DNA of 64,000 nt from Necropsobacter rosorum (GTDB taxonomy: Bacteria; Pseudomonadota; Gammaproteobacteria; Enterobacterales; Pasteurellaceae). Under the pieces are notes generated by a model. That model worked only from the letters and a program-made list of their open reading frames with translations. It had not been told where the DNA came from and made no database searches. The DNA is taken from contig CCMQ01000005.1 of assembly GCA_000751835.1 (NCBI GenBank), positions 1 through 64,000 of the forward strand, written 5' to 3'. The first letter of the stretch is position 1; the number at the start of each line of letters is the position of its first letter. A program made the position numbers and the translations under genes. Below are positions 58,274 to 60,798 of the stretch, piece by piece.

Positions 58274-58343
58274 TTGCAGGGGATGAACGGGGTAAAAGTG
58301 CGGTCAAAAATCCGGCTGTTTTTGTGATTTTACAGGAGTGTTT

Positions 58344-58976
58344 ATGCCAACCGATGCGTTGATTTGTTCCGCCAGCTGCGAGCTGTTTACGCTGCCTTTT
58401 TTGCAGTTCGCGCAAATGAAAAAATTCTGTCCCGAGGATATCCCGCGCATCAAGGCGGATTACAAATTCCGCTGGGATAACTGGAAACGCTGTATTTTAC
58501 AGGTTGCGGGCGAGCTCGGCACACCTTTTGCCAAACCGCATATTGAAAGCTGGACGAATGGCTGGCAGGTGCGCGGGCATTTTTTCGCGTATTTTAAATA
58601 TGAATTCAATTTGAATTCGGCGGCGATTTTATCGGTGATTTTAAACAGCCGCCGTCTTTCCGTCAGTCTGGACTGGCATTGTTATCGCGCCGACCGTTCG
58701 CAAATCGGCGTTGCGCAATATAATCGCTGGCTGGATGATCTGGATGTTCAACGCTATGCGGATTTTGATATCTGGCGCGGCGATGAGAGCGAATATGCCG
58801 ATTTTCGTCAGCTCAAACAACTCGGCGCGGCGGATCTGACCTTGCGCGACGAGCAGGATTTCTGGTGCATCGGTAAAAATGTGGAAAAAGCGCAGCTGGA
58901 CGACATCGACGCCGTCGCATTTATCGCCGACAACATACGGGCGCTCGCTCCGCTGTATGAAAAATGCCACCAATAA
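58344..58976 (+). CDS. Conserved protein of unknown function downstream of apaH
   Basis: The 210 residues have no signal peptide or membrane segment and are rich in Trp, Asp and Tyr (WDNWKRCILQ, RWLDDLDVQRYADFDIW), suggesting a soluble cytoplasmic protein. I do not recognise a family or catalytic motif. From memory H. influenzae also has an unassigned gene after apaH. The ATG at 58344 follows the ribosome site ACAGGAGTGTTT; a GTG two codons earlier is less likely. Transcription with apaH is possible: the gap is 70 bases with an uptake signal and no clear terminator. Confidence 0.8.
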   Translation: MPTDALICSASCELFTLPFLQFAQMKKFCPEDIPRIKADYKFRWDNWKRCILQVAGELGTPFAKPHIESWTNGWQVRGHFFAYFKYEFNLNSAAILSVILNSRRLSVSLDWHCYRADRSQIGVAQYNRWLDDLDVQRYADFDIWRGDESEYADFRQLKQLGAADLTLRDEQDFWCIGKNVEKAQLDDIDAVAFIADNIRALAPLYEKCHQ

Positions 58977-59079
58977 ACCGATTCCCTTTTTCGGCGTTTT
59001 CGCTTATGCTTAGCGGGCATTTATGTAAATAAATGCGGGATGTATAACAAGTTTGTTTATTATCTAGCAGGAAATCCTT

Positions 59080-60189
59080 ATGAAAAAATTGTTGCTGGCG
59101 ACCGCACTTTCCTGTGCCGCCGCTGTTGTCTTTGCCGCCGAACGGCAGAATCCGAACACCGTCGAACATACTTACCGCTTAACCGAATCCTTTAATATCG
59201 CCGTGCCACAAGGTTCCGCGGGCGAAACCAAATTATGGGTGCCGCTGCCGTTTAATAGTGATTATCAGGCTGTGAAATCCATTCGTTACGAAGGCAATTA
59301 CCGGCAGGCTTACATCACGGAAAATAATGCCTATGGCGCGAAAACCCTTTATGCCGACTGGGATGACAAGGCGCAGAAACGGGAGCTGAAAGTGGTGCTG
59401 GAGGTGCAAACCAAAGACCGCGAAGTGGGCTTAAGCGGGGCGCTGACGGATTATCAGCCACCGCAAACGATTCATTATTCGGTGGATGTGGCACCGTATC
59501 TGCAGCCGACGGCGCATATAAAAACCGACGGTATCGTGAAAGAATATGCCAATAAAATCATCGGCAAGGAAACCAATCCGCTGAAACAAGCGGCGCTTAT
59601 CCATAATTGGATTGTCGGCCATATGGAACGGGATAATTCGGTGCTCGGCTGCGGGGACGGCGATGTGGAAAAAATACTGACCAGCGGCGTGTTACGCGGT
59701 AAATGTACCGATATTAATTCGGTATTTGTGGCGTTGGCGCGAGCCGCCGGCATTCCCGCCAGAGAAGTGTTCGGCATTCGTTTGGGCGCCGCGCCGAAAA
59801 TGGCCAGATATTCCGCCACCGCATTCGGCAGCTCGAACGAACAAGGCATTGCCGATGTCAGTGGCGCACAGCATTGCCGCGCCGAGTTTTATTTAGCCGG
59901 TTTCGGCTGGGTGCCGGTGGATTCCGCCGATGTGGCGAAGATGCGGCTGGCGGAGAAAAAATCGGTCGCTGATGCCGATACGCAGGCGGTGGCGCAGTAT
60001 CTGTTCGGTAACTGGGAAATGAACTGGATCGGCTTTAATCACGGCCGCGACTTTGAACTCTATCCGGCGGGCGAAATGACGCTGCTGAACAATTTTGGTT
60101 ATCCTTATGCCGAAGTGGGCGGCGATCCGTTGAATTTCTTTGATCCGAAAGAATTTAGCTATGAGTTTAGCGCCGAAAAATTACACTAA
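59080..60189 (+). CDS. Secreted transglutaminase-like cysteine protein
   Basis: The 369 residues begin with a signal peptide (cut after VVFA, near residue 19), so it acts in the periplasm or outside. The N-terminal half is a beta-rich domain; the second half is a transglutaminase-like fold with a full triad: Cys209 in [10 protein letters not shown], His265 in GAQHCRAEF and Asp281 in VPVDSADV. Such proteins are usually proteases or amidases. An uptake signal lies in the signal-peptide codons. It overlaps the next gene, a MerT homologue, and forms a three-gene unit with a MerP homologue. The function is unknown. Confidence 0.88.
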
Positions 60190-60517
60190 CCGTTTTGTCG
60201 CCGTTTGCCTGACGGCGCTTGCCGCCGCGCTGGCCTCAAGCCTGTGTTGTATTGGGCCGCTGATTTATCTGCTTTTCGGTGTTTCGTCGGTATGGCTGAT
60301 CGAACTGAATCAATTCGAGTTTCTGCGCATTCCGATGTTGCTGTGCTCGCTGGCGGCATTCGGCTACGGATTCTGGTTATTGGTGTTTTCCAAACGAATC
60401 ATTTGCAGCCGATACTTATCCCGCCGCAGCTTGATTTTGCTGTATTGGCTGGTATTGGCGTTGATTTTATTTTTCTTATTTTATCCGACTTTGCTACCTT
60501 GGATATTGGAGGAATGA
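60161..60517 (+). CDS. MerT-like membrane transport protein
   Basis: The 118-residue protein has three membrane segments and the paired cysteines [10 protein letters not shown] (Cys29, Cys30) in the first one, exactly the MerT hallmark for moving mercuric ion. The second cysteine pair of classical MerT is reduced to a single cysteine in KRIICSRY. The start at 60161 lies 29 bases inside the preceding gene; a non-ATG start earlier in frame is possible. It is followed at once by the MerP-like gene. No merA or merR is present, so transport of another soft metal is quite possible. Confidence 0.82.
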
Positions 60518-60798
60518 TGATAAAAAAATTCCTGACGGTGATGCTGACAACACTGCTGTTCAGTCTGTCCGTCGCCGCGCAGGCGGAACAGCAGCTGACG
60601 CTGAAAATCCCAGAAATGACCTGCCAGCTGTGCGCGTATTTGGTCAATAAGCAATTACGGGCGGTGGACGGCGTGATTTCCACCAAAGCGAACCTGAAAA
60701 CGCAATCGGTGCGGATTACGGCTCAGCCGCAGGTGAACGTGCAAACCCTGATTCAGGCGGTAGATGAGCTGCATTATCATGCCGAAGTGGTGGAATAG
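60517..60798 (+). CDS. MerP-like periplasmic heavy-metal-binding protein
   Basis: The 93-residue product has a signal peptide (cut after AQA, residue 23) and one HMA domain with the metal site MTCQLC (Cys36, Cys39), the MerP/CopZ-type MTCxxC motif. It would collect a soft metal ion in the periplasm and pass it to the MerT-like protein. The ribosome site GGAGGA sits just upstream, and the ATG overlaps the MerT-like stop codon; an ATG one codon earlier is in frame but touches the ribosome site. Confidence 0.88.
   Translation: MIKKFLTVMLTTLLFSLSVAAQAEQQLTLKIPEMTCQLCAYLVNKQLRAVDGVISTKANLKTQSVRITAQPQVNVQTLIQAVDELHYHAEVVE

Follow-up and report, generated by a model that had tools for sequence, protein, structure and literature searches.

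The window analysed in this work (a whole stretch of 64,000 nucleotides of DNA from Necropsobacter rosorum) harbors an operon of three genes, encoding a secreted transglutaminase-like enzyme, a MerT-like membrane protein and a MerP-like periplasmic protein, and the association of this operon with selenium use is strong. In every quantitative sample of genomes the intact enzyme subfamily is confined to selenium-using genomes, and the operon is probably a dedicated system for the acquisition of selenium. With somewhat less assurance, we favour the view that it represents the first dedicated selenium importer, in which a transglutaminase-fold thiol relay, a MerP carrier and a MerT channel, the latter at times fused to a YedF-type TusA domain, deliver selenium to SelD.

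According to reviews, a high-affinity system for the transport of selenium is still to be identified in prokaryotes (PMC9312934; PMC13188914); papers of 2022-2026 likewise state that no dedicated selenium transporter is known, and one study in which five candidate loci were deleted found no such transporter. The operon described here is a concrete candidate for a selenium transporter, with conserved residues that can be mutated, and it occurs in easily grown hosts (Shewanella and Citrobacter, with the enzyme also in Sinorhizobium). It was not found in E. coli, where a DNA-level search of 5,426 genomes with the Citrobacter operon gave no match, and this species should provide a clean recipient. 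If the proposed function is correct, then it would explain why MerT and MerP genes labelled as mercuric transport occur where a mercury operon is lacking, and the mercury-type transporter family will have a physiological, non-metal cargo. The first-pass annotation knew of no described system of this kind, and in the literature that was searched, which leaves most subscription journals outside its coverage so that an earlier notice is possible, we also found no account of the enzyme or of MerT as a selenium system.

Organization of the operon and characteristics of its proteins

The positions of the three genes and of the features preceding them are given in Table 1. The reported overlap of 29 bases between the transglutaminase-like and MerT-like genes is confirmed by the coordinates of the reading frames (60161-60189), as is the further overlap in which the stop of the MerT-like gene is covered, by 4 bases, by the MerP-like reading frame. 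The N. rosorum genome resembles those of Pasteurellaceae in its uptake-signal-type AAGTGCGGT sequences and in its synteny with Pasteurella multocida, in which the same gene set is found between apaH and leuS.

Table 1. Positions of the operon genes and of the features 5' of them in the window
Feature	Position	Strand	Remarks
HI_0552-family gene	58338-58976	+	Function-unassigned family PF10786, E 3e-93
Inverted repeat AACAAGTTTGTT, leader of operon	59046..59057	+	Putative; possible regulatory site
Likely ribosome-binding stretch, transglutaminase-like gene	59066..59073	+	Read from sequence
Transglutaminase-like secreted protein gene	59080..60189	+	369 aa; N-terminal signal peptide; core gene
MerT-like membrane protein gene	60161..60517	+	ATG at 60161; Pfam MerT; CC at residues 29-30, C82
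MerP-like periplasmic HMA protein gene	60514 (or 60517)..60798	+	Signal peptide; Pfam HMA, MTCxxC

The transglutaminase-like protein matches the Pfam family Transglut_core (PF01841) with an E value of 4e-23 and is a member of this superfamily. The Cys209-His265-Asp281 triad ascribed to the secreted enzyme was found at precisely these residues, and all three positions are invariant across 49 diverse homologues. Two more cysteines, which had been overlooked earlier, are as firmly conserved in these homologues as C209, viz. C191 within a GCGxG motif and C266, which directly follows the catalytic histidine. The enzyme is modelled by AlphaFold with high confidence (pLDDT 91.9, pTM 0.89). The solved fold closest to this model is 3isr, a transglutaminase-like putative cysteine protease (TM 0.58/0.72), with the TgpA periplasmic domain (6g49) as a more distant second. 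The transglutaminase-like cysteine protease fold and the Cys-His-Asp triad are shared with both of these proteins. However, the identity to them is only 14-15%, and the two further conserved cysteines as well as the selenium-gene context described below are properties of the operon enzyme subfamily.

The MerT-like protein belongs to the Pfam family MerT (PF02411), with a score of 41.3 bits against a gathering score of 32.9, although some of the Campylobacterota members score under this cut-off, and the MerP-like protein, with the motif MTCQLC, matches the Pfam family HMA (E 1e-11). The MerT-like homologues retain the CC pair of the first helix together with a single later cysteine, and MxCxxC is retained in 84 of 84 HMA proteins. 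The known MerT and MerP proteins are importers, whose cargo is Hg(SR)2, and the proteins of the operon resemble those of the mer operon in that a membrane protein of three helices, containing a CC pair, is encoded adjacent to a periplasmic HMA protein with CxxC, with thiol-to-thiol transfer being likely in both cases. However, against the equivalog models for the mercury proteins, the MerT-like protein of the window scores 37 bits (NF010314; cut-off 150) and the MerP-like protein 44 bits (TIGR02052; cut-off 92.55). The homologues from four other lineages are similarly below these respective cut-offs, with scores of 26-36 bits for full-length MerT homologues from gammaproteobacteria and Campylobacterota and of 26-52 bits for the MerP-like homologues. 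The operon differs further from the mer operon in its single conserved later cysteine in MerT, its fixed transglutaminase partner and its linkage to selD instead of merA or merR. In agreement with the first-pass annotation, merA, merR and merB are absent among the open reading frames listed around the operon; mer genes also do not form a recurring neighbour cluster in the loci of its relatives. Based upon the family scores and the missing mer neighbours, mercury resistance, which had already been considered unlikely, is rejected as the function of this operon.

The MerT and HMA proteins of the operon also show weak matches to the selenoprotein models NF045683 and NF041115. Proteins of the MerT and HMA types are occasionally selenoproteins and have been read as parts of metal resistance (PMC13188914). 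These matches reflect domain families in common; the selenoproteins contain selenium as one of their own residues, whereas the motifs of the operon proteins contain cysteine, and selenium is the proposed cargo.

Conservation of the gene set and its linkage to selenium use

A search for the enzyme, with one genome per species, confirmed its presence in at least 581 stretches, of which the best 80 named loci, all from other genomes, were analysed. These loci span the Pasteurellaceae, Enterobacterales (Citrobacter, Leclercia, Kluyvera, Buttiauxella, Budvicia, Providencia and Serratia), Shewanella, Wohlfahrtiimonas and Campylobacterota (Sulfurospirillum, Campylobacter concisus, Campylobacter showae and Arcobacter), and the order transglutaminase-MerT-HMA is present in 78 of them. 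In one of the two exceptions (L053) the locus is cut by a contig end and in the other (L067, from Haemophilus aegyptius) the enzyme gene is rearranged. The same order was seen in 11 of 11 further loci from Campylobacterota and in 2 of 2 further gammaproteobacterial loci, and due to this recurrence the gene order cannot be attributed to chance, which upholds the suggestion that the three genes form a functional set. A rare adjacency of these genes in other genomes, which according to the first-pass annotation would have refuted its proposal, was thus not observed. The enzyme is, however, found without MerT and HMA in the alpha- and betaproteobacterial loci and in two gammaproteobacterial genomes (G373 and G235), indicating that the enzyme is the core of this set and that the transporter can differ.

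Linkage of the enzyme to sel genes was observed in alpha- and betaproteobacteria, in one gammaproteobacterium and in many Campylobacterota. Distant relatives of the enzyme are located with selD, selB, selA and fdhE in Rhizobium, with selD, selA and fdnG in Terrarubrum, and inside a selenium locus on pSymA of Sinorhizobium meliloti; in Phyllobacterium the enzyme is adjacent to selD, and in Cupriavidus it is located between selB and selD. The full set of three genes adjoins selD, selA and selB in Arcobacter-type genomes, and in one Campylobacterota locus (L112) the genes selA-selB-enzyme-MerT-HMA-selD follow each other in a row on one strand. Of the 58 enzyme copies from Campylobacterota, 13 are within 10 kb of selD as against 0.6 expected, and all of the 11 that were inspected contain the three genes. 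The operon as such is away from sel genes in Pasteurellaceae and Enterobacterales, and in the N. rosorum genome selA and selB are on contig C8 and selD on C6. Solitary enzyme copies with no sel gene nearby are present in Salipiger, in Alloyangia and on some Paracoccus plasmids; G373 also has one, as the second of its enzyme copies.

Some further observations concern these loci. Solitary enzymes from Rhodobacterales plasmids (L009, L010, L108 and L111) and from G373 (L096) keep the same cysteines. On plasmid pFER4 of Paracoccus ferrooxidans (L109, 2724-18381), the stretch from selB to selA includes the enzyme, a cysteine desulfurase-like gene, TusA and DsrE, and from its gene content it looks like a larger selenium-handling cluster. 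Small secreted proteins, which have the motif GSTGWxGG in common and are otherwise unlike, are encoded in two alphaproteobacterial sel loci (L004, 7373-7768; L005, 9066-9356).

The presence of the enzyme also follows that of the genes for selenium use across genomes. In a sample of 121 Pasteurellaceae genomes, all 77 intact enzyme genes occur together with an intact selA, and none of the nine genomes lacking an intact selA, seven of which also lack selD, has an intact enzyme. The remaining two of the nine are caught in the process of losing the selenium trait, with selA and the enzyme decaying together: in one (G105; L100 and L101) selA is absent and the enzyme gene is split in two, with about 29 kb between the parts, and in the other (G037; L102) selA contains 8 stops, selD is broken and the enzyme is in fragments. 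There are also a few Pasteurellaceae (G031, G072 and G101) in which the enzyme gene is damaged but selA is kept. Among 200 genomes of Campylobacterota (155 with selD and 45 without), the 58 strong enzyme matches are all in genomes with selD, and the 45 genomes without selD gave no strong match but two weak ones, in both of which the gene is interrupted by an internal stop. A GTDB order sample of 219 genomes, 80 of them with selD, contains 12 enzyme genomes, ten of which are Pasteurellaceae shared with the family sample; all 12 carry selD, and the enzyme is absent from the 139 genomes without it. The Fisher p values for these three samples, which ignore shared ancestry, are 6e-5, 3e-8 and 3e-6, respectively.

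If the enzyme were strictly linked to selenocysteine, then it should not be present where selA is lacking. However, among 309 genomes of Gammaproteobacteria there were two, the above noted G373 and G235, in which the enzyme occurs without selA, and both of these have selD and selU (tRNA selenouridine synthase), with the order enzyme-selD-selU on one strand in G373. A strict linkage to selenocysteine is rejected on account of these two genomes, which indicate that the link is to selenium itself, i.e. to its use through selD, rather than to selenocysteine or to formate dehydrogenase. The enzyme is lacking in many selenium users, including E. coli, and hence the operon should be viewed as one of several selenium routes.

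TusA-type proteins carry sulfur or selenium on a cysteine, as a persulfide or its selenium analogue. In six loci from Campylobacterota (L112, L113, L114, L115, L117 and L119), an N-terminal domain of this type with a CPxP motif is fused to MerT, a domain pairing of which we know of no earlier description. In the four fused proteins that were scanned, the Pfam TusA matches have E values of 4e-19 to 5e-13, and for three of these four the top NCBIfam match of the domain is selenium_YedF (TIGR03527), with scores of 49-67 bits; these matches cover the N-terminal half of this model and are below its whole-protein cut-off of 110. The joining of MerT to a TusA-type carrier, together with the adjoining selD, argues that the membrane cargo is a chalcogen. 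A set with some resemblance to this is YedE/YedF (FdhT/FdhU in Campylobacter), in which a membrane protein and a TusA-type protein are likewise linked to selD (PMC5322559), and YedF is the best match for the TusA domain of some of the operon MerTs. However, YedE is a ten-helix protein with distant similarity to a sulfur transporter (PMC5322559) and is unlike MerT, neither a transglutaminase nor an HMA partner has been described for it, and its role in transport is unproven; deletion of yedE in Methanococcus caused no clear transport defect (PMC11097638).

Alternative interpretations and the proposed route of selenium

The first-pass annotation had suggested that a soft metal (Cu, Zn, Ni or Hg) is taken up by MerT/MerP and is released or sensed by a periplasmic protease or amidase. 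The family membership of the MerT and HMA proteins accords with this, as do the weak matches of the HMA protein to models for CopZ, CopA and MerP, but the scores against these models are all under the curated cut-offs, and no metal genes recur in the neighbour clusters. Further, if a soft metal were taken up, then neither the confinement to genomes with selD nor the fusion of MerT to a YedF-type TusA would be expected, and none of the linkage data are in accord with such uptake. The co-occurrence with selD and selA, the selD, selA, selB and selU neighbours and the TusA fusions point instead to selenium, and a soft metal as the cargo is now quite improbable.

The same linkage data would also be seen if the operon served selenium homeostasis in some manner other than import, such as periplasmic capture or the detoxification or export of selenium present in excess, where MerT/MerP would act outward or in protection; excess selenium is toxic and the direction of MerT is itself deduced. 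This possibility is unlikely, as known MerT/MerP proteins import, delivery to SelD accords with the TusA domain joined to MerT and with the gene order leading directly into selD, and the operon is lost along with selenium use even though selenium remains in the environment. The presence of fdnG and fdhE in alpha- and betaproteobacterial loci with the enzyme might likewise be interpreted to mean that it is a maturation or protection factor for the selenocysteine-containing formate dehydrogenase rather than a factor for selenium. However, G373 and G235, which have selU and lack selA, keep the enzyme, in G373 within a run with selD and selU; the likelihood left for such a role is very small, and we reject it.

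For the acquisition of selenium by this operon, which is the interpretation we prefer, a route can be outlined. Selenium is a chalcogen, whose binding to thiols is much like that of soft metals, and selenite reacts with thiols to form selenotrisulfides. Species of the selenodiglutathione type (S-Se-S) have been seen in selenite-exposed bacteria (PMC8981825). Periplasmic selenium would react with thiols to give selenotrisulfides (R-S-Se-S-R), in which the atom is held by two thiols; a selenium atom held in this way resembles the Hg(SR)2 that MerP and MerT handle. The transglutaminase-like protein would then accept or free the thiol-bound selenium by means of C209 (with H265 and D281), C191 and C266, either by cleaving an amide (e.g. 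in a selenium-bearing peptide) or by acting solely as a selenium relay. From there the selenium would pass to the CxxC of the MerP-like protein and on to the paired cysteines (CC) of the MerT-like channel, moving inward by thiol exchange. On the cytoplasmic side it may be received by a TusA-type carrier, which is fused to MerT in some lineages, or by low-molecular or free thiols, and it would finally reach SelD for the synthesis of selenophosphate; in N. rosorum, the operon would thus feed selenocysteine synthesis. The function of the operon is in all respects deduced from sequence, and this applies to the enzyme chemistry, the selenium species and the role of each cysteine as well as to the import direction, the inward transport being assumed by analogy with MerT.

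Leader of the operon

The HI_0552-family gene directly precedes the operon on the same strand and is outside the conserved set. Upstream of the operon, a single candidate for an FNR-type box was seen, in the H. aegyptius locus L067. Inverted repeats of 12-13 bases are present about 28-45 bases 5' of the start codon in many Pasteurellaceae leaders, including that of the window and loci such as L003, L011, L013, L014, L016-L028 and L031. The arms of these repeats vary by genus (viz. AACAA/TTGTT, AACAT/ATGTT and GTTAA/TTAAC) with their complementarity being kept, and, judging from this pattern, the repeat could possibly be an operator or a small hairpin.
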